Below the pieces are notes generated by a model. It did not search any database and was not told the DNA's origin. It saw only the letters and a program-made list of their open reading frames with translations. Below are positions 3,527 through 22,645 of a DNA stretch of 64,000 nt, in pieces. This DNA comes from Magnetococcales bacterium. GTDB taxonomy: Bacteria; Pseudomonadota; Magnetococcia; Magnetococcales; UBA8363. Location of the stretch: positions 1 through 64,000 of the forward strand of contig JADGCV010000005.1 of the NCBI GenBank assembly GCA_015228815.1, given 5' to 3'. Position 1 is the first letter of the stretch; every line of letters begins with the position of its first letter. The position numbers and the translations under genes are program-made.

Positions 3527-3583
3527 CGCGACGATGTCGGTCGTGGCCATCGCGGGTGATCATCGAAAGGGGGTTCCGGCGAC

Positions 3584-5173
3584 ATGAAGGATCTTTCTCC
3601 CGTTTATGGCAACCGGCGCACCTTCGCCATCATTGCCCATCCCGATGCCGGCAAGACGACTCTGACGGAAAAACTGCTTCTCTTCGGCGGCGCCATCCAG
3701 ATGGCGGGCCGCGTCAAAGCCCGCGGACAGGCGCGCCGCGCCCGGTCCGACTGGATGAAGGTCGAACGGGAGCGGGGAATTTCCGTTACCGCCTCGGTCA
3801 TGACCTTCGAGCATGAAGGCAATGTGTTCAATCTTCTCGACACGCCCGGACACGAGGATTTCAGCGAGGATACCTACCGCACCCTGACAGCCGTCGATAC
3901 CGCCGTCATGGTGCTCGATGCCGCCAAGGGGATCGAATCCCAGACCTTGAAATTGTTCGAGGTGTGTCGCCTGCGCAATGTTCCCATCATCACCTTCATC
4001 AACAAGCTCGACCGGGATGGACGCAGTCCCCTGGAGCTGCTCGACGAAATCGAAAACCAACTGGCCCTCGAAGTGACGCCCGCCTCCTGGCCCATCGGCA
4101 TGGGACGTGATTTTCTTGGCTGTTACGACATCCTTCACGACCAGTTGATGTTCATGCAGCGGGGCGACGGCTCGGAAATGCGCGAGGCCATTCCCTGTCG
4201 CGGTCTGGATGATCCCATTCTGGGGTCGCTTCTTTCGGAAGACACCTGGAACGCCTTGCGCGATGATGTCCTCATGGCCCGGGGGTTGTGTCCCCCCTTC
4301 GATACCCGATCCTTTTTGCGTGGCGATCTTTCACCGGTCTTCTTTGGCAGTGCCGTCAACAATTTTGGCGTCCGTGAACTCCTCGACGGGCTGGCGACGA
4401 TGGCCTCTCCCCCCCGACCGCAGCCGGCACGGGAACGGCTGGTCGATCCCGGCGAGGAGACGGTGACGGGGTTCGTCTTCAAGATCCAGGCGAACATGGA
4501 CCTCAAGCATCGCGACCGCATCGCCTTCCTGCGCCTTTGTTCCGGGCATTTCCGGCGCGGCATGAAACTGATCCATCAGCGGACCGGAAAAAGTGTCAAC
4601 GTTCACAATCCCATGATTTTTCTCGCCCGGGAGCGGGAGACCCTGGAAGAGGCGTGGGCGGGGGACATCATCGGTATTCCCAATCATGGGGCGCTGCGCA
4701 TTGGCGATACCCTGACCGAAGGGGAGACGCTCCGGTTCACGGGGGTTCCGAGTTTCGCCCCGGAATTGTTGCGACGCATCCGTCCCGATGATCCCATGCG
4801 CACCAAACATTTGGGACGGACGTTGATCCAGTTGGGCGAGGAGGGGGCGGCGCGGGTATTCAAGACCCGTTTGGGGTCCGATTGGATCGTCGGCGTCCTC
4901 GGGGCGTTGCAATTCGAGGTATTGGCGGATCGGATTCGGACCGAATATGAAATGGTGGTTCATTTCGATTCGACCCCTTTTTTCACCGCGCGCTGGGTCG
5001 ATGGCGATGATGCGGCAAAGGTCAAGGCCTTTGCCGAGGCCAACGTCGCGGACATGGCCGAAGATCATGATGGACTGCCGGTCTATCTGGCCCGCAATGC
5101 CTGGCGGTTGGAGAATGCCGCGCGAGAATGGCCTTTATTGCGTTTTCTATCGACTCGCGAACAGCTTTGGTGA
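3584..5173 (+). CDS. prfC: Peptide chain release factor 3
   Basis: RF3 is a translational GTPase that recycles release factors RF1/RF2 from the ribosome after termination. The 529-residue length matches the family. G-domain motifs are clear: HPDAGKTTLTE (P-loop), the switch region RGISVTASVM, DTPGHEDF and NKLD. The remainder matches the beta-barrel domains II and III of RF3. A perfect 9-bp inverted repeat (5151-5159 and 5191-5199) spans the stop codon region with a long loop and could form a weak 3' structure. Confidence 0.97.
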   Translation: MKDLSPVYGNRRTFAIIAHPDAGKTTLTEKLLLFGGAIQMAGRVKARGQARRARSDWMKVERERGISVTASVMTFEHEGNVFNLLDTPGHEDFSEDTYRTLTAVDTAVMVLDAAKGIESQTLKLFEVCRLRNVPIITFINKLDRDGRSPLELLDEIENQLALEVTPASWPIGMGRDFLGCYDILHDQLMFMQRGDGSEMREAIPCRGLDDPILGSLLSEDTWNALRDDVLMARGLCPPFDTRSFLRGDLSPVFFGSAVNNFGVRELLDGLATMASPPRPQPARERLVDPGEETVTGFVFKIQANMDLKHRDRIAFLRLCSGHFRRGMKLIHQRTGKSVNVHNPMIFLARERETLEEAWAGDIIGIPNHGALRIGDTLTEGETLRFTGVPSFAPELLRRIRPDDPMRTKHLGRTLIQLGEEGAARVFKTRLGSDWIVGVLGALQFEVLADRIRTEYEMVVHFDSTPFFTARWVDGDDAAKVKAFAEANVADMAEDHDGLPVYLARNAWRLENAAREWPLLRFLSTREQLW

Positions 5174-5287
5174 TCTGTGTTTCGATGGAGCGCGAGTCGT
5201 TGTCCCGGTTGTCAGGCTTTCAAATCCGAAGTGCGTTTTTTAATTGCGACTCTCTTTGTGGGGTGCGTATCAGGGAGAGATTTTTTC

Positions 5288-5296
5288 TGATATACT
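5288..5296 (+). promoter_or_regulatory. Extended -10 promoter candidate
   Basis: The string TGATATACT has the TG-N-TATACT form of an extended -10 element, about 20 bases before the ATG of the DUF1640 remnant at 5317, which also retains an AAAGGAG ribosome site. No convincing -35 box is visible. It may now drive the antitoxin at 5406. Confidence 0.4.
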
Positions 5297-5316
5297 CGAA
5301 TGAAAAGGAGTTCGCC

Positions 5317-5360
5317 ATGACGACAGCGACGTTTGATACCTTGAAGTTTGTGCGACGGCA
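5317..5360 (+). pseudogene. 5' remnant of a DUF1640 (CCDC90-like) gene
   Basis: The first 14 codons read MTTATFDTLKFVRR, matching the start of DUF1640 proteins and closely resembling the intact copy in this window at 56527 (MAIATFDTLEFVASLE). After that the frame continues with unrelated residues to 5562 and overlaps the antitoxin gene in another frame. A good ribosome site and promoter-like element remain. I read it as the 5' scar of a gene whose body was replaced by the antitoxin segment. Confidence 0.6.
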
Positions 5361-5405
5361 ATCGTTCAGAACCATCAGGAATGACGTAATCCTGGAGAGG
5401 CTCCC

Positions 5406-5618
5406 ATGCGGATCGTTCGAAAACAACTGGTTACCGATGAGGAACACAAACCCATCGCTGTCCAGATTGACTACGATGATTGGTTGCGGATCGAACGGCA
5501 ACTCAAAATACAATCCCCGCCGGTCCAAGAAGTTGACCTGTCCCGTTATGTGGGCACAGTGAACCTGACTGAATCGCCGTTGGCCTATCAGGCACGTAGC
5601 CGGAACGAGTGGTCGTGA
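5406..5618 (+). CDS. Antitoxin-like protein of a truncated toxin-antitoxin pair
   Basis: A 70-residue protein starting MRIVRKQLVTDEEHKPIAVQ with the central stretch IDYDDWLRIERQL, typical in style of Phd/VapB-type antitoxins that are followed by PIN-domain toxins. A GGAGAGG ribosome site precedes the ATG. Its stop codon overlaps the GTG start of a PIN toxin frame that survives for only a few codons (next entry), the standard overlap of a TA operon. With its toxin gone it is an orphan antitoxin. The family assignment rests on layout and residue style rather than a diagnostic motif. Confidence 0.7.
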   Translation: MRIVRKQLVTDEEHKPIAVQIDYDDWLRIERQLKIQSPPVQEVDLSRYVGTVNLTESPLAYQARSRNEWS

Positions 5619-5654
5619 ATTACGTTTTAGACACCAACATAGGTACCCGTTCAG
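5615..5654 (+). pseudogene. 5' stub of a PIN-domain (VapC-type) toxin gene
   Basis: The GTG overlapping the antitoxin stop opens the frame VNYVLDTNI, the classic N-terminus of a PIN ribonuclease with the first catalytic Asp in LDTN. Homology ends within about a dozen codons, where the palindromic element at 5655-5801 begins. No later PIN residues are visible after the element, where arsM starts almost at once. The toxin is therefore deleted, not merely interrupted. Confidence 0.65.
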
Positions 5655-5801
5655 ACGTAATCGTTCCCCCCCCTCTCTTTGGGAGAGGGGGGGGGAGGGA
5701 ATGTGCGTTAAAAATCGCGACAGATCTTTGAATCATGGAGTTTTTGTTTGCCCTCATCTCGGTCCTCTCCCAAAGGGAGAGGGGGTGGTGAACGATTACG
5801 T
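5655..5801 (+). repeat. 147-bp palindromic (MITE/REPIN-like) element
   Basis: The ends are a perfect 12-bp inverted repeat, ACGTAATCGTTC on the left and GAACGATTACGT on the right. Just inside each end lies a second C/G-rich palindrome containing TTTGGGAGAGG or its complement CCTCTCCCAAAG, so the whole element can fold on itself. It codes for nothing recognisable. CTCTCCC-AAAGGGAGAG cores are common in dispersed REP-type repeats of proteobacteria. I see no clear target-site duplication. Confidence 0.75.
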
Positions 5802-5821
5802 AACTGTGTGGAGAGATTGCA

Positions 5822-6883
5822 TTGAGCGACCATGACCTGAATCCCGACGAAGTGAAATGGTATTACGGGACGGTTTTGCAAGGGACCCAGGATCTCAAGA
5901 CCAGCGCCTGCTGTATTGGCGATGGATCCCTGGCCCCGAGCGTCAAATCCGCCCTGGAACGGGTCAACGATGAGGTACTGGCCCGTTTCTATGGATGCGG
6001 TTCGCCATTACCCCCGGCCCTTGAGAACTGCACCGTTCTGGATCTTGGTTGCGGTTCGGGACGGGATGTCTATGTCGCCGCGCAATTGGTGGGGCCTGGG
6101 GGACACGTCATTGGCGTGGATATGACCGAGGAACAGCTGACCGTCGCCCGATCCAATCTTTCCTCCCAGATGCAGCGTTTCGGGTATGCCCGGCCCAATG
6201 TGACCTTCCACCTGGGACGGATCGAAAACCTTGCCCTTCTGGGCATTGCCGATGCCAGCGTCGATGTGGTGATCTCCAATTGCGTTTTGAACCTGTCGCC
6301 GGACAAACGGGCCGTCTTCGGCGAAATCTTCCGGATCCTGAAACCGGGCGGCGAATTGTTTTTTTCGGATGTTTTCGCCGGTCGCCGGGTGCCGGAGCGT
6401 TTTCTCGACGATCCGGTCCTTCGCGGGGAGTGCCTCGCCGGGGCCATGTATCGCGAGGATTTCCGCCGCTTGTTGCGAACGTTCGGGTGTCTGGACTACC
6501 GCGTTGTCGAATCCCGGCCTCTGAACCTGAAGCGTCCCGAGGTGGAACGGGTCATCGGCATGGTTGATTTTCACTCGGTGACCATTCGCGCCTTCAAACT
6601 GTCATCGTTGGAAGACCTTTGCGAGGATTACGGGCAGGTGGCCATCTACCATGGAACCCTTGCCGATGCCCCCCATTTCTTCGACCTGGACGATCATCAC
6701 CGCTTTCATACCGGAAAACCCATGCTGGTCTGCGGCAATACCGCCTCGATGATTCAGGAAACCCGCTATCGCTCCCATTTTACCGTCCATGGCGACCGAT
6801 CGACCCACTACGGACCGTTCGATTGCGCCTCCTCCCATGAAAAAAAGGAGAAGGAATCAGGTGTTGGCGGGAGTTGTTGCTGA
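5822..6883 (+). CDS. arsM: Arsenite S-adenosylmethionine methyltransferase
   Basis: ArsM methylates As(III) using SAM, giving methylated and finally volatile arsenicals. The 353-residue product has the family signature YYGTVLQGTQDLKTSACC, the SAM-binding LDLGCGSGRD motif (about 75-84) and the conserved arsenic-binding cysteines: C30/C31, C155 in SNCVLNL and C205 in RGECLAGAM. It ends in GGSCC. The start is a TTG at 5822 behind a GGAGA site; there is no in-frame ATG nearby, so the start is somewhat uncertain. It follows directly on the palindromic element and the toxin stub, so it may have arrived with, or be transcribed from, that rearranged segment. No arsR regulator is adjacent. Confidence 0.9.
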   Translation: MSDHDLNPDEVKWYYGTVLQGTQDLKTSACCIGDGSLAPSVKSALERVNDEVLARFYGCGSPLPPALENCTVLDLGCGSGRDVYVAAQLVGPGGHVIGVDMTEEQLTVARSNLSSQMQRFGYARPNVTFHLGRIENLALLGIADASVDVVISNCVLNLSPDKRAVFGEIFRILKPGGELFFSDVFAGRRVPERFLDDPVLRGECLAGAMYREDFRRLLRTFGCLDYRVVESRPLNLKRPEVERVIGMVDFHSVTIRAFKLSSLEDLCEDYGQVAIYHGTLADAPHFFDLDDHHRFHTGKPMLVCGNTASMIQETRYRSHFTVHGDRSTHYGPFDCASSHEKKEKESGVGGSCC

Positions 6884-6974
6884 GTGACGGCGCCACCCGG
6901 AATGGAGCGACCGTTCCGGTGGGAGGTGGATCCCATCGGGGGCGCTCCGGGCAGTGCCATCCTTCCGGGCGAGC

Positions 6975-8670
<1,696 letters not shown>

Positions 8671-13199: not shown

Positions 13200-14969
13200 A
13201 TGCGTTTTGGCGCCACATTGATTCCCACATTGAAGGAAAATCCGGTCGAGGCGCGGGTGGAGTCCCATCGCCTGATGTTGCGGGCTGGTTTGATTCGGCA
13301 ACTGGGGGCGGGGATTTATACCTGGCTTCCCCTGGGGTTGCGGGTGTTGCGCCGGGTGGAGGCAATCGTCCGTGAGGAGATGAACGCCGCGGGGGCCCAG
13401 GAAATACTGATGCCCGGAGTGTTGCCCGCCGAATTGTGGCGTGAGTCGGGACGATGGCAGGTGTATGGACCTGAACTGCTTCGCTTTCAGGATCGCGGCG
13501 GGCGGGAATTCTGTCTTGGCCCGACGCATGAAGAGGTGGTGACCGATCTGGTCCGCCGGGAACTTCGCTCCTATCGCGACCTTCCCGCCAATTTCTATCA
13601 GATTCAGACCAAATTCCGCGATGAGGTCCGTCCGCGCTTCGGCATCATGCGCGGACGGGAATTTTTGATGAAGGACGCCTATTCGTTCGATCTTGACGAA
13701 GAGGGATTGGAACGAAGCTATCGTTCGATGGTGGCGACCTACAGGCGCATCTTTGACCGCTGTGGCCTGCGTTACCGTGCCGTCGAGGCGGACACAGGGG
13801 CCATCGGCGGGGCTTTTTCCCATGAATTTCATGTATTGGCCGAGAGTGGCGAGGATGTCATCGTCTCCTGTGACGGGTGCGGCTACGCAGCCAATCTTGA
13901 AAAGGCGGAGGGGACGCCGGTATCCGCGATGACCGAAGTGGACGAAATGTCGCCGCCGCTTCGGGCGGTTGAGACCCCCGGACAAAAAACAATGGAGGAA
14001 GTCGCTTCCTTTCTGGGGGTGCCGCTTGAAAAAACGGTCAAATCCTTGGTGGTGGCGGGGGATGAAGGGGCGTTTCAACTGTTGTTGCGCGGCGACCATG
14101 AACTCAATCTTGTCAAGGCGGCGCGCGCCCTGGGGATGACCGTGGTCCATCTGGCGGAACCGGAACAGGCGGAACGATGGGCTGGGGTTACCGTCGGATC
14201 GATGGGACCGGTGGCGGGACGGTTGCCGATGGTGGCGGATTCGGTGTTGCGGAATCTGTCCGGTTTCGTCGCCGGGGCCAACATCGAGGGATGGCACCAT
14301 GTCGATGTTGCGTGGGGGCGGGATTGTCCGGTTCCGCGCTGGGCCGATCTGCGCAATGTCGTGGCGGGTGATCGTTGCGGGCGTTGCGGCGCGGGGACGC
14401 TGCGGCTGGACCGGGGCATCGAGGTGGGCCATGTGTTCAAACTGGGCGATAAATATACCCGGGCCTTGAAGGTGACGGTTCAGGATGCCCAGGGGCGCGA
14501 ACGGACACCGATCATGGGATGTTATGGAATCGGTGTTTCGCGGATCGTCGCTGCCGCCATCGAGCAGAATCATGATGACAATGGCATCGTCTGGCCTCTT
14601 TCCCTGGCACCGTTCCCGGTGGAACTGGTGGTGGTCAATCCTCGCGACGGAGAATCGATGCGCATTGCCCAGGATGTGGAGCGGGAATTGCTTCGGGGGG
14701 GCATCGAGTCGCTCGTCGATGATCGGGATGAGCGACTGGGGGTCAAATTCAAGGATGCCGATCTCCTGGGGATCCCCTTTCGCGCATTGATCGGCGGACG
14801 CTCCCTGAAGGAGGGGACGGTCGAAATTCAGCAGCGCGGCGGCGCGGAAAAAGTATCAGTCCCTCTGGGGGACGTCGTGGCCCAATTGCGTGCCCGGATT
14901 CGGGCGGCGGCGGATACGGCGGGCGACGACACCCATCTTCGATCCGTGGAAGTCCCGGAACATGAATGA
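13200..14969 (+). CDS. proS: Prolyl-tRNA synthetase
   Basis: ProS charges tRNA-Pro. The 589-residue length and the presence of an editing insertion between motifs 2 and 3 mark it as bacterial-type ProRS. Visible features are the N-terminal TLKENPVEARVESHRLM, motif 2 around FRDEVRPRFGIMRGREFLMKD (interrupted here only for length), the editing domain near residues 230-380, motif 3 (GCYGIGVSRIVAAAIEQ) and the anticodon-binding C-terminus. The stop overlaps the start of the following CheX gene. Confidence 0.96.
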   Translation: MRFGATLIPTLKENPVEARVESHRLMLRAGLIRQLGAGIYTWLPLGLRVLRRVEAIVREEMNAAGAQEILMPGVLPAELWRESGRWQVYGPELLRFQDRGGREFCLGPTHEEVVTDLVRRELRSYRDLPANFYQIQTKFRDEVRPRFGIMRGREFLMKDAYSFDLDEEGLERSYRSMVATYRRIFDRCGLRYRAVEADTGAIGGAFSHEFHVLAESGEDVIVSCDGCGYAANLEKAEGTPVSAMTEVDEMSPPLRAVETPGQKTMEEVASFLGVPLEKTVKSLVVAGDEGAFQLLLRGDHELNLVKAARALGMTVVHLAEPEQAERWAGVTVGSMGPVAGRLPMVADSVLRNLSGFVAGANIEGWHHVDVAWGRDCPVPRWADLRNVVAGDRCGRCGAGTLRLDRGIEVGHVFKLGDKYTRALKVTVQDAQGRERTPIMGCYGIGVSRIVAAAIEQNHDDNGIVWPLSLAPFPVELVVVNPRDGESMRIAQDVERELLRGGIESLVDDRDERLGVKFKDADLLGIPFRALIGGRSLKEGTVEIQQRGGAEKVSVPLGDVVAQLRARIRAAADTAGDDTHLRSVEVPEHE

Positions 14970-15426
14970 CCTTTTGTCGATGGCACTGTCCGATGCCGTG
15001 ACCGAAATCGCCCAGACCATGTTGTTCACGGATATTGGCATCGGACCGTTCGAGGTCCAGGGCAACCTTCAGACAGCCGATTTCAGTGCCATCGTTGGTT
15101 ACGGTGGCGGCTTGAACGGCAGCCTCAGACTTGGGGGATCCCTGAACGCTTCCCTGCGATTGGCTGGGGCTTTGTTGGGTGAAACCCGTGAATCGTGGGA
15201 CCAGGAATTGGAGGATGCGTTTGGTGAAATGGCCAATATGATCGCCGGAGGGGTGCAGACCCGGATCGAGGGGTTGGTCGGGACGATCACTCTGACCCCG
15301 CCCATGGTGATTCAGGGGAAAAACCACCAGATCGCGGGCCAGCAGCCTTCCCACAGGTTGTGTCGCCACTTTGAAATCGATGGGATGGGCTTTTTCTGTG
15401 AAATTCACCGTACCGATCCTGCCTGA
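14962..15426 (+). CDS. CheX-family chemotaxis phosphatase-like protein
   Basis: A 154-residue protein of the CheC/CheX fold. It contains the ELEDAFGEMANMIAGG stretch, whose ExxN (EMAN) motif is the catalytic pair used by CheX and CheC to dephosphorylate CheY-P. The glycine-rich GYGGGLNGSLRLGG strand pattern also fits. CheX domains also occur in proteins not linked to flagellar chemotaxis. The ATG at 14962 overlaps the proS stop, so translation is probably coupled; the frame extends upstream to 14890 but inside proS. Confidence 0.8.
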   Translation: MNDLLSMALSDAVTEIAQTMLFTDIGIGPFEVQGNLQTADFSAIVGYGGGLNGSLRLGGSLNASLRLAGALLGETRESWDQELEDAFGEMANMIAGGVQTRIEGLVGTITLTPPMVIQGKNHQIAGQQPSHRLCRHFEIDGMGFFCEIHRTDPA

Positions 15427-15851: not shown

Positions 15852-15937
15852 CGGCGGCGCGTCTTGAGGGCGATCGGAAGGCAGGCTTGATTCGGGTTTG
15901 CATTTCCCGGAAGGGTTGATTGGGAATCGGGGATCCG

Positions 15938-17959
15938 ATGGAAAAAGAAAACCTGATGATTCGGTTGCGGCAGGCTTTGCGGATTCACGAATCGGGTGAT
16001 GTCGCCGCCGCCGAGACTGTTTATGCGGAGGTTGTTGGGGTTCTCCCCCATTTTTCCGATGCCTGGCATCTCTGGGGATTGGCGGCCCAGGACCTTGGAC
16101 GCCATGAGGATGCGGTTTTTCGTTTGGGCCGCGCCATCGCCAAGGGGGGCGAACAGGGGCAAACTCTGTATCACCTTGGGGTATCGCTCCACGCCCTGGG
16201 ACGGTGTTTGGCGGCGGTGGCGTGTCTTGAAAAAGCGGTTCGGCTCGAACCCGACAACCCGGAGTTTCTGGCGGAACTGGCCAATGCCATGCTGGAACAA
16301 AAGGACCTGTCGCGCGCGGAGTCGCTGTATCGACAGGTGTTGGCGCTCAAGGAGGCTTTTCCCCAGGTGCATTACAATCTGGCCACGGTGTACCGGGAAA
16401 CGGGACGGGATGCGCAGGCAGTGCATCATTGGCTGCGAACTCTGGAACTTGATCCCGGACACTGGAAGGCCTGTTTCAGTCTGGGACTCACCTTGCAGTT
16501 CGACAATCGAATCGAGGAGGCGGTATCCTGTTTTTCACGCGCAATAACCCTCAAACCCGACTATCTGCGTGCGCGATGGGCGCTGCATCTGGCTTTGCCC
16601 ACCTTGTTTGCCGACGAAGAGGAGATGATACGCGCCAGGCAACGTTGGATGGCGGGGGTGGACGAACTGCAACGCACCTTTTTTCCCGCTTCGGAAGTGG
16701 AACTGGAAGAAGCGCGGTACGCTTGTGAATCGACGACCAATTTCCATCTTCACTATCAGGGGGGCAATGATCTGGAGGCACAGAAGGTCCAGGGGGCACT
16801 TCTGACGCGACTGGCCCATCGGATTTATCCGGGCCATGAGGGACCGTTGCCTCCCGCCGTTCTTCATGAGGGGCGGATTCATGTCGCCTTTGTTTCTTCC
16901 TTTTTGTACGGCCATTCCGTATTCAAAACCCATTCCCGCTTCATCACCCGTCTCGACAGGAGACGATTTTTCGTCCGTGTGTTCTATACCGGGACCGTTC
17001 ATGACGAATACCTCGGGTCGATCATGCGCGAATGCGATGTCTTTCACGATATTGGGCATCGGAGTTCCCGTCTGATCGAAGCCATTTGCGAGGTCGCTCC
17101 CGAGGTCCTGATCTATACCGATCTGGGGATGGATCCATCACTGAATCTGGTATCCGCGCTGCGGTTGGCACCGATTCAGTGCAATGCCGGGGGGCATCCG
17201 ATCACTTCGGGCCTTGCCAACATGGACTATTTCCTGAGCAGTGATGATATGGAATGCGAACATGCGGCGGCTCATTACAGCGAAACGCTCATTCGCCTGC
17301 CACACCTGGCCCACTGCTATCCCTCCCCCAGGGTCGAACATGCCATCATTCCCCCGGGCGCCGAGCGGGAGGAGGGTACGGTGGTTTATTGCAATCTGCA
17401 AAACCTGATCAAACTGTTGCCACGACACGATCATGTCTATCCCGCCATCGCCCGCGCGTTTCCCCAGGCCCGTTTCTGGTTTATCGATGTCGGGGGAGGG
17501 AGCGGCAGCGTTTTTCGGCGGCGATTGCAGAGGGTTTTTTCCCGCTACGACTTGGACCATGAACACTATTGCCGTCTGTTCCCGAAGATGGATCTGTACC
17601 GTTTTTTTGGGTTGATCCGGCAGTCCGACATCATTCTCGACGGGATTTCGTGGTCCGGCAACAATTCCAGCATGGAAGCGCTCGCCCTGGACAAACCGAT
17701 TGTCACCCTGCCGGGAGAGATGTTTCGCAGTCGTCATACCCATGGAATTCTGAAGCGTTTGGGGCTTTTTGAAACCCAGGCGGAAAACCTGGAGCGCTAC
17801 ATCGCCATTGCGGTTCGTTTGGGGAAGGATCCGGCCTTTCGTGCATCGGTCACACGGTCGATCGCCGAGCGAAAACATGTTCTCTACGAGGATCCCGAAC
17901 CGATCCGGGGGTTGGAACGGGAATTGGAACGCCTGGTCGCCCTGAATCATGGTGGCTGA
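15938..17959 (+). CDS. TPR-GT41 glycosyltransferase (SPINDLY/OGT-like), copy 1
   Basis: About 673 residues. The first third is tetratricopeptide repeats (ALRIHESGDVAAAETVYAEV; AWHLWGLAAQDLGRHEDAVF; YHLGVSLHALGR). The last half matches the catalytic part of GT41 O-GlcNAc/O-fucosyl-type transferases: HVAFVSSFLYGHSV, IQCNAGGHPITSG, YCNLQNLIKLLP and the GNNSSMEALALDKPIVTLPG nucleotide-sugar-binding region. Such bacterial proteins glycosylate surface proteins or make glycans; the substrate is unknown. ATG 15938 is preferred; a TTG at 15920 behind GGAAGG is the alternative. A second GT41 gene lies at 59.7 kb. Confidence 0.85.
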   Translation: MEKENLMIRLRQALRIHESGDVAAAETVYAEVVGVLPHFSDAWHLWGLAAQDLGRHEDAVFRLGRAIAKGGEQGQTLYHLGVSLHALGRCLAAVACLEKAVRLEPDNPEFLAELANAMLEQKDLSRAESLYRQVLALKEAFPQVHYNLATVYRETGRDAQAVHHWLRTLELDPGHWKACFSLGLTLQFDNRIEEAVSCFSRAITLKPDYLRARWALHLALPTLFADEEEMIRARQRWMAGVDELQRTFFPASEVELEEARYACESTTNFHLHYQGGNDLEAQKVQGALLTRLAHRIYPGHEGPLPPAVLHEGRIHVAFVSSFLYGHSVFKTHSRFITRLDRRRFFVRVFYTGTVHDEYLGSIMRECDVFHDIGHRSSRLIEAICEVAPEVLIYTDLGMDPSLNLVSALRLAPIQCNAGGHPITSGLANMDYFLSSDDMECEHAAAHYSETLIRLPHLAHCYPSPRVEHAIIPPGAEREEGTVVYCNLQNLIKLLPRHDHVYPAIARAFPQARFWFIDVGGGSGSVFRRRLQRVFSRYDLDHEHYCRLFPKMDLYRFFGLIRQSDIILDGISWSGNNSSMEALALDKPIVTLPGEMFRSRHTHGILKRLGLFETQAENLERYIAIAVRLGKDPAFRASVTRSIAERKHVLYEDPEPIRGLERELERLVALNHGG

Positions 17960-20029: not shown

Positions 20030-22645
20030 ATGGATCATATTATTAAAATACCCGTAATCAAAGGTGTCTATTGGGTCGAGATTCCCGAAGCCGGATTACA
20101 GATTCTCTGTGGATGTCCCGCCGATTGCGTCAAGCATCTGATGAAGCGGGGATTGATCATTCAGCGTGAGATCGAAGGGGTGATGTGTGAAACCGGGCCC
20201 AATGCCATTCTTCTGTCGGATGTCATGATCCAGCATGGTGAATTTTCCAATCTGGCCGAATTTCCAGTCCTGCAAATGCTCTACAAACAGGGACTGATCA
20301 TTCCCAACCATCCCAACAATACGGGGCTGAAACCACTGCTCATTGGTTTGGGCGAGCAGGTTCACGCCCAGATGCAATATATTTTCCGGGGAAATTACGG
20401 GCTGGTCACGCAACAGGAGATCGAGCAGGCGGGGATCGACGAAGAGACGGCCCGGGAAATGATGCGACTGAAAACCCGTTTCGCGTTTGGTCAGATCAAG
20501 CCTTCCCACATGTTGCTCGACAGTTGCATTCTTGATCGGGGACGCAGGGAAATACGCAACGGGGTTGAAATCGAACGACTGGCAGTCAACGAATTCGAGA
20601 TTTTTTATCGCGGCGCAAGTGTCCATGTGGACCTCAACCTGTATGGCGAGGACCGCTATGAACCGCCTTATCCCCTGGGATTCCAGAGCATTCCCAGGGA
20701 TTATTTCGCGATCATTCATTCGGGGGACGGCGATGGTTGGGACGTCAACCGTCCAACGATGTCGAGTGTTTTGTTGTTCCAGGGGAAAATTTACCTGATC
20801 GATGCGGGGCCGAATCTTTATTTCAATCTGACGGCGTTGGGAATCGGCATCAATGAAATCGAGGGGGTGTTTCATACCCATGCCCACGACGATCATTTCG
20901 CCGGTATCACCACGTTGATGCGTTCGGAGCACAAGATAAAATATTATGCCACCCCGCTGGTGCGCATGACCGTGGAAAAGAAACTCGCGGCCTTGCTGTC
21001 CATGGAGGAAAATCAGTTTCGCGATTTTTTCGATTGTCGCGACCTGCCATTGGATCAGTGGACCGATATCCAGGGGTTGGAGGTCAAACCGATTTTTTCG
21101 CCGCATCCTCTGGAGACGACTGTTTTTGTTTTTCGCACCCTCTGGTCGAGTGGCTACTGCACCTACGGCCATTTTGCCGACATCGTCTCCCTGGGGGTCC
21201 TTGAAAAGATGATCACCGAGGATCCCCAGGCCCCTGGGATCCGGCGTTCGTTTTACGAAAAGACCAAGGCGGGCTATCTGGCCCCATTGAACCTGAAGAA
21301 GATCGATATTGGCGGGGGGATGATCCATGGGTGCGCCGAGGATTTTCGCCATGACCGTTCCGACCGGATCGTTCTGGCGCATTCATCCAGTGGACCCACC
21401 CCCGTCGAAAAGGAGATCGGATCGTCCGCTCCCTTTGGTATTTGCGATGTGCTGATTTCGGGCAAGAACGATTTTGCCCGCCGTCTGGCGTTCCAATATT
21501 TGCAGAGCCATTTTTCCCGGGTTCCGTTTCATCATCTGCGCATGTTGCTTAACAATGATGTGGTGACGATGAATCCGGGGGCGATCATTCTCAAGGAGGG
21601 GGAGGTTTCCTCGGATGTGCTGCTGATTCTTTCGGGATTGGTGGAAAAAATATTTCCGGGTGAAAACCGTCTGAGCCGTCTGATGGCGGGCGCTTTGATC
21701 GGTGAATTGTCCGCCCTGACCCAGGTCCCCGCGCAGTTGACGTTTCGGGCGGCCAGTTATGTCACCGCCATGAAGATTTCATCCGGCCTGTATCAGCAGA
21801 TCGTTCACAAGAACGGATTGTTCGACCAGATCGAACGGACCGCGACCCTGCGGTCGTTTTTCGAATCGATGGATCTGTTCGATGAAGGGTTGTCCCATCC
21901 GGTCATGGCGGGCATCATTGCCCGCCTTACCCATAGCATTGTGGCTCCGGGAGCATCCCTGCCCGAGGAGGAATTCGGGTTTCTCAATGTCGTTCAGCGG
22001 GGAAAAATGCGTCGGTTTCTCGGGGGAGAACGGATGGAAGTCCTCGAATCCGGACGGTTCTTTGGGGAAGAGGGGGCGATCTTCGGCATGCCGGCCCTGC
22101 ATCGGGTCGAGGCTCTGGAGGAGACGGAAGTGCTTCGGATCCGGGGGGACCTGCTCAAGGACATTCCGATCGTCCGTTGGAAGCTGATCGAATCCTACAA
22201 GGCCCGAACGATGCAGAATTATTGTGATGGCGATGATACCCTGGCCTTCCAATGGCGCGAGGAGGATGCCACCGGCATCGCCGCCATGGATGTCCATCAC
22301 AAGCGGTTGTTTGAAATCGGCAACAGCATCGTCGCCATCCTTCGTTCGGGACAGTCCGGAGGATCGCTCATCGCCGCCATGACCGCCCTGGTCGATTATA
22401 CCGAATACCATTTCGAGGCGGAGGAACGATTGATGGAACAATATGGTTTCCCCGAATTGCCAAGGCATCGTCAAGTGCATCGCGGGATGGCCCTTCAGGT
22501 CAAGGATCTCCAGGAACGACTTCATGGCGGTTCCTTGCCAGGCTCTGCCGAATTCCTTTCCTTCCTGAAAAACTGGATGGAACAGCATATCTCCATGGAG
22601 GACCGTGCCTATGCCGTCTTTCTCCAGTCGAAGGGAGTTTTCTAA
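20030..22645 (+). CDS. Metallo-beta-lactamase fold, two cNMP-binding domains, hemerythrin fusion
   Basis: An 871-residue multidomain protein. An N-terminal region (1-240) has no family I recognise. A metallo-beta-lactamase-like domain follows with the HTHAHDDH metal motif at 282-289. Two cyclic-nucleotide-binding-like domains come next (about 520-640, with IGELSALTQVPAQLTFRA; and 650-745, with FGEEGAIFG). A hemerythrin domain (754-871) ends the protein, with the di-iron ligands in place: H756/757, H794 and E798 (HFEAE), H813, H817, and H853 with D858 (HISMED). The layout suggests an O2- or NO-sensing enzyme gated by a nucleotide, though the cNMP domains may be ligand-free. It stands alone with a long upstream region. 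The start at 20030 follows GGGAGA. Confidence 0.88.
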   Translation: MDHIIKIPVIKGVYWVEIPEAGLQILCGCPADCVKHLMKRGLIIQREIEGVMCETGPNAILLSDVMIQHGEFSNLAEFPVLQMLYKQGLIIPNHPNNTGLKPLLIGLGEQVHAQMQYIFRGNYGLVTQQEIEQAGIDEETAREMMRLKTRFAFGQIKPSHMLLDSCILDRGRREIRNGVEIERLAVNEFEIFYRGASVHVDLNLYGEDRYEPPYPLGFQSIPRDYFAIIHSGDGDGWDVNRPTMSSVLLFQGKIYLIDAGPNLYFNLTALGIGINEIEGVFHTHAHDDHFAGITTLMRSEHKIKYYATPLVRMTVEKKLAALLSMEENQFRDFFDCRDLPLDQWTDIQGLEVKPIFSPHPLETTVFVFRTLWSSGYCTYGHFADIVSLGVLEKMITEDPQAPGIRRSFYEKTKAGYLAPLNLKKIDIGGGMIHGCAEDFRHDRSDRIVLAHSSSGPTPVEKEIGSSAPFGICDVLISGKNDFARRLAFQYLQSHFSRVPFHHLRMLLNNDVVTMNPGAIILKEGEVSSDVLLILSGLVEKIFPGENRLSRLMAGALIGELSALTQVPAQLTFRAASYVTAMKISSGLYQQIVHKNGLFDQIERTATLRSFFESMDLFDEGLSHPVMAGIIARLTHSIVAPGASLPEEEFGFLNVVQRGKMRRFLGGERMEVLESGRFFGEEGAIFGMPALHRVEALEETEVLRIRGDLLKDIPIVRWKLIESYKARTMQNYCDGDDTLAFQWREEDATGIAAMDVHHKRLFEIGNSIVAILRSGQSGGSLIAAMTALVDYTEYHFEAEERLMEQYGFPELPRHRQVHRGMALQVKDLQERLHGGSLPGSAEFLSFLKNWMEQHISMEDRAYAVFLQSKGVF

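Follow-up and report, generated by a model that had tools for sequence, protein, structure and literature searches.

The genome of a Magnetococcales bacterium (GCA_015228815.1) contains a gene that joins a metallo-beta-lactamase (MBL) fold, two domains of the cyclic nucleotide-binding (CNB) type and a hemerythrin, and the question raised by this locus is whether such a fusion is real and, if so, what kind of protein it encodes. We analysed a 64,000-nucleotide stretch of contig JADGCV010000005.1 (positions 1 to 64,000, hereafter the window), in which the gene and its parts are located as follows:

20030..22645, + strand: N-terminal module, MBL hydrolase, CNB, CNB and hemerythrin in this order, 871 amino acids (Pfam, NCBIfam, AlphaFold2 model)
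20030..20674, + strand: N-terminal module, residues 1-215 (high conservation, without Pfam match)
20675..21484, + strand: MBL-fold hydrolase, residues 216-485 (Pfam, invariant ligands, Foldseek)
21527..21853, + strand: CNB domain 1, about residues 500-608 (Pfam, alignment; Arg replaced, A568)
21854..22225, + strand: CNB domain 2, about residues 609-732 (alignment; Arg replaced, A689)
22241..22642, + strand: bacteriohemerythrin domain, about residues 738-871 (Pfam, NCBIfam; full ligand set)

One open frame encodes all 871 amino acids and its start ATG has gggaga, a plausible ribosome-binding site, upstream. The protein gave Pfam matches to cNMP_binding (3.1e-16, two stretches), Hemerythrin (3.3e-15), Lactamase_B (8.8e-9) and Lactamase_B_2 (3.2e-8), all exceeding the Pfam gathering scores, and its C-terminus matched the NCBIfam bacteriohemerythrin model NF033749 (5.9e-31; 107 bits versus a cut-off of 84). 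Because these matches are joined by a confident AlphaFold2 model (pLDDT 88.5, pTM 0.90; computed from a 73-sequence family alignment), the four-part fusion that an earlier note had read from the DNA sequence is real, with the domain order set by sequence and model together. That reading had overlooked two features, a conserved N-terminal region of 215 amino acids and the fact that neither CNB domain retains its phosphate-binding Arg.

Members of the family were found in all 48 Magnetococcales genomes searched, including the source genome, and a full-length member with hemerythrin in 39 of the 48 (counted from the match table). Contigs 14 and 26 of the source genome each carry a paralogue of the window gene, so that this genome has three members in all; the contig 14 copy has hemerythrin and is 56% identical. 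The one named relative, from 'Magnetococcales bacterium DCbin4' of the same genus and the only relative in the contig scan, is 82% identical, and the whole layout is preserved among relatives at 46-82% identity. Outside the Magnetococcales, two further classes yielded members. In the first, 6 of 78 genomes were positive, all from a single genus, and in the other 4 of the 385 genomes sampled; hemerythrin was seen in just one of these, G169. Since the layout is kept in relatives and the family is present throughout the Magnetococcales searched and scattered in other proteobacteria, the fusion is no chance event, and we conclude that the gene represents a real, conserved and uncharacterised protein family. 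A phage or plasmid origin and a defence-system role were considered and rejected: a viral-contig scan with the family gave no relatives; tblastn matches to plasmids reached a query coverage of 17% at most and, among the matches listed, lay in the hemerythrin part only; and the best PADLOC defence-system matches were CNB-TIR effector models aligning with the CNB stretch only (E 1e-5).

For the MBL domain the active-site residues were compared in 75 members. The motif HTHAHDDH corresponds to residues 282-289, and H284, H286, D288, H289, H359, D384, H433 and H451 are invariant in 75/75, such that the metal ligands beyond this motif, on which the MBL assignment in the earlier note depended, are present in every member. 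The domain thus has the HxHxDH motif and the distal His, Asp and His that characterise RNase Z and class II phosphodiesterases within the MBL superfamily; we take H433 to replace the RNase Z motif histidine and H451 to be the last metal ligand, with a spacing that fits RNase Z. Foldseek searches with the model of residues 1-485 (pLDDT 92) gave Apyc1 as the top match (7e-11), followed by a PhnP-family diphosphatase, RNase Z structures (third and below) and the MBL phosphodiesterase YhfI at rank 8; Apyc1 and YhfI have been placed among the class II phosphodiesterases (PMC9117128). All 69 members scanned gave a weak match to the Apyc1 Pfam family PF23023; the 871-residue protein scores 19.3 bits versus a gathering score of 50 and so does not count as a member of it. 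MBL folds act on many substrates, and on ligand pattern and modelled fold the domain is probably a zinc phosphodiesterase. The alternative suggestion of a reductase finds no support: flavodiiron proteins, whether O2 reductases or sensors, carry the di-iron motif HxExDH, whereas HAHDDH conforms to HxHxDH, the zinc phosphodiesterase/RNase Z type, in 75/75 members, and no flavodoxin or rubredoxin domain was detected by Pfam in the 871-residue protein.

Residues 1-215 rank among the most conserved stretches of the family (C27 in 75/75, C29 in 73/75 and H36 in 70/75 members; conserved motifs CGCP...VKHLM, ETGPNAILL, EFPVLQMLYxQG and RGNYGL), and they gave no Pfam match in the 69 members scanned. 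As judged from the model, this module may be an extra MBL half as in long-form RNase Z. Prompted by the Foldseek matches to long-form RNase Z, we tested this region as a degenerate repeat of the MBL half, for which neither profile comparison nor a shuffled pairwise test gave support. These results bear on the reading that the protein is an RNase Z-like nuclease for RNA processing or decay, set by O2 or redox state, with an N-terminal module that binds RNA or is a degenerate half MBL. The complete RNase Z ligand set and the rank of the RNase Z structures are consistent with it, as is the larger part of the model covered by long-form RNase Z (ELAC2; TMq 0.53 versus up to 0.39 for single MBLs). 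However, apart from the negative repeat comparisons, PF13691 (tRNase Z endonuclease) was matched in only one of 69 members (E 0.097), and fusions with CNB, receiver and hemerythrin domains better suit small-molecule signalling; we therefore consider an RNA nuclease fairly improbable.

The two CNB domains align in tandem with PKG and with PKA regulatory subunits, and the best structural match of the modelled tandem is the cAMP-independent PKA-R of trypanosomes. In the PKG alignment, the register of which was confirmed, the phosphate-binding Arg positions are occupied by A568 (CNB1) and A689 (CNB2), so the pocket residue that the earlier note had wanted checked is absent from both. Among the 75 members Arg is present at this position in none of the CNB1 and in eight of the CNB2 domains, and a canonical phosphate-binding cassette, defined as GE + PRxA(T/S), was found in 0/75 in either domain, with GE mostly kept. 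Given the lost Arg and the missing cassette, ordinary cAMP or cGMP binding by either CNB is unlikely on sequence grounds, which weakens the idea that a nucleotide gates the enzyme in the ordinary sense. It also weighs against the reading that the protein is a phosphodiesterase stimulated by cAMP or cGMP, in which at least one CNB still binds the nucleotide without the Arg and the hemerythrin has a tuning role. The order of an MBL followed by two CNBs matches that of GbpA/GbpB (PMC11988041), and the source genome has genes for four class III cyclase domains. Against this, no member has the canonical cassette, CNB1 is without the Arg throughout, and this residue is kept in all three further CNB proteins from the source genome that have a readable cassette; we judge cyclic nucleotide stimulation to be improbable.

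A non-cyclic ligand of the tandem, for example a nucleoside, could also gate the MBL enzyme. The nearest CNB folds include cAMP-independent Trypanosoma PKA-R bound to inosine or guanosine, and the kinetoplastid protein, likewise without the Arg, binds purine nucleosides via a Glu at cassette position 4 (PMC10959531). Applying the rule from that study, i.e. Glu at cassette position 4 together with a polar residue at the Arg site, we found that the ribose-holding Glu is nearly absent (1/75 in CNB1, 4/75 in CNB2). A kinetoplastid-type nucleoside pocket is for this reason not supported, and gating by such a ligand appears very unlikely.

In the C-terminal domain, the complete hemerythrin ligand set noted earlier was recovered as seven di-iron ligands (H757, H794, E798, H813, H817, H853 and D858), which are all kept in 48 of the 49 hemerythrin-bearing members compared, the exception being H794C in one. 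The domain is modelled as four helices and thus has the five His, one Glu and one Asp in a four-helix bundle that define bacteriohemerythrins. Its nearest solved relative is DcrH-Hr, which has been proposed as an O2-sensor domain (PMC2556348). The source genome also has several short open frames with a single hemerythrin domain, and at locus L099 a single-domain hemerythrin gene (6970-7554, + strand) lies 10 bases downstream of a hemerythrin-bearing family member.

The input domains differ among family members. A Pfam scan of six members identified SBP_bac_3 in one and Response_reg in four, one of which also has hemerythrin, and no recognised extra domain in the remaining member; Response_reg, or SBP_bac_3 with a transmembrane (TM) helix, is positioned N-terminal to the same core. 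The contig 26 paralogue of the source genome (3651-6923, - strand) is without hemerythrin and has a solute-binding domain and an apparent TM helix, read by eye from the sequence, before the MBL-CNB-CNB core. On the core tree the members with a solute-binding domain form one group (80/91), and the tree requires 12 changes of architecture compared with 26.3 when the labels are shuffled; gain or loss of modules has thus taken place repeatedly. At locus L106 an apparent loss of hemerythrin is a frame break, either real or assembly-derived, with an intact-looking hemerythrin frame (3580-4086, - strand) adjoining the core (4056-6197, - strand). The core stays constant while the input domains change, which indicates that it is the output module, and N-terminal fusion to a receiver or to SBP_bac_3 and a TM helix, as in classical output modules, supports a sensor-gated output. 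That the hemerythrin merely stores or scavenges O2 or iron, with the other domains as tethers, is highly improbable: stand-alone hemerythrins with storage or scavenging roles are known, and short hemerythrin frames do occur in the source genome, but the hydrolase ligands are invariant in all members, hemerythrin-less ones included, and hemerythrin is exchanged with receiver and solute-binding domains.

The genes next to family members, named by eye from sequence, vary by genome and often encode REC-histidine kinases (in an overlapping gene), REC-HD-GYP proteins and a CheC/CheX-like protein; other neighbours of this kind are a diguanylate cyclase, MCPs and a single-domain hemerythrin. Such company of two-component, c-di-GMP and chemotaxis genes counts in favour of a signalling role. 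At loci L077 and L083 the first 25-49 bases of the family gene's open frame are shared with the frame of a REC-histidine kinase, which suggests that both belong to one operon. In the window, the 871-residue gene looks monocistronic and its neighbours (by eye) are the housekeeping genes pyrF, gapA, mtnP, apt and mtnA, for which reason this context says nothing about a signalling role. The window also encodes a CheX-like protein (by eye) at about 14960-15426 (+ strand) and, close to it, a TPR/O-GlcNAc-transferase-like protein at 15920-17959.

Taken together, we find it somewhat probable that the protein is a cytoplasmic, sensor-gated MBL phosphodiesterase with hemerythrin as input, the CNB tandem as relay and the MBL as output. 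The earlier description of a sensor-effector with a hydrolase is in agreement with the intact hydrolase and hemerythrin ligand sets and with sensor parts that are exchangeable across the family. In the mechanism that we propose, the hemerythrin would bind O2, or report the redox state, at its di-iron site; the CNB tandem, placed between hemerythrin and MBL, would carry a conformational signal; and O2 would in this way alter the activity of a di-zinc phosphodiesterase of the RNase Z/PhnP/class II type that would probably act on a small phosphodiester, with a cyclic mononucleotide as the most plausible candidate. In the paralogues the same core, i.e. N-terminal module, MBL and tandem CNB, would be an output module that takes its input from a receiver or from the combination of periplasmic solute-binding domain and TM helix. 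More tentatively, and with considerable doubt, we suggest that this Arg-less core is a hitherto undescribed bacterial output module that can be switched by O2, phosphorelay or a periplasmic ligand, that it provides O2-gated nucleotide turnover in all sampled Magnetococcales, and that its CNB ligand is not a cyclic nucleotide.

Hemerythrins are numerous in Magnetococcales genomes, and magnetotactic cocci have their habitat at oxic-anoxic boundaries, where the protein might be used in positioning; to our knowledge few outputs of magnetococcal hemerythrin sensors are known. The MBL protein appears to be an enzyme output of bacterial signalling that is little known so far and possibly under oxygen control. 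If the proposal is correct, O2 sensing would be linked directly to the turnover of nucleotide messengers via a family universal in the Magnetococcales sampled, and MBL enzymes would join the list of sensor-driven outputs in bacteria; the Arg-less tandem CNBs moreover raise the question of which ligand, if any, they bind.

Several of the parts have counterparts in known systems. A 2008 survey reported many chimeric hemerythrins in Magnetococcus, and across all surveyed genomes about 20 partner domains were unidentified (PMC2556348). As in DcrH, Bhr-DGC and Bhr-HD-GYP, a bacteriohemerythrin with full ligand set is joined to a signalling output, and fusions of hemerythrin sensors with GGDEF and HD-GYP domains have been characterised (PMC9388753, review); the described outputs are MCP, GGDEF and HD-GYP (PMC9388753, PMC2556348), whereas here it is an MBL, for which our literature search found no precedent. 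Apyc1, YhfI, PhnP and RNase Z share the metal set (HxHxDH + His + Asp + His) and are the best structural matches, but they are stand-alone enzymes, without the N-terminal module, CNB pair and sensors of the magnetococcal protein. The tandem CNB fold is that of PKG and PKA-R, with the Arg loss shared by kinetoplastid PKA-R, and differs in having no kinase and in lacking the ribose-binding Glu of the kinetoplastid protein. In described domain order the protein resembles Dictyostelium GbpA and GbpB, class IIb MBL-type phosphodiesterases activated by cyclic nucleotides via two downstream cNBDs (PMC11988041). The magnetococcal protein has the same layout of MBL followed by two CNB folds, in which cNMP binding is doubtful; it is without the CNB phosphate Arg, has hemerythrin added and can be preceded by receiver or solute-binding modules. 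The earlier statement that no standard gene joins these domains accordingly holds for the combination of MBL, two CNBs and hemerythrin, of which our literature searches found no description, and not for an MBL with two cNBDs, which has been characterised in GbpA/GbpB. Hence, an MBL with two cNBDs is known, and what is new is its coupling to hemerythrin, the degenerate CNBs, the N-terminal module and the swapping of sensors.
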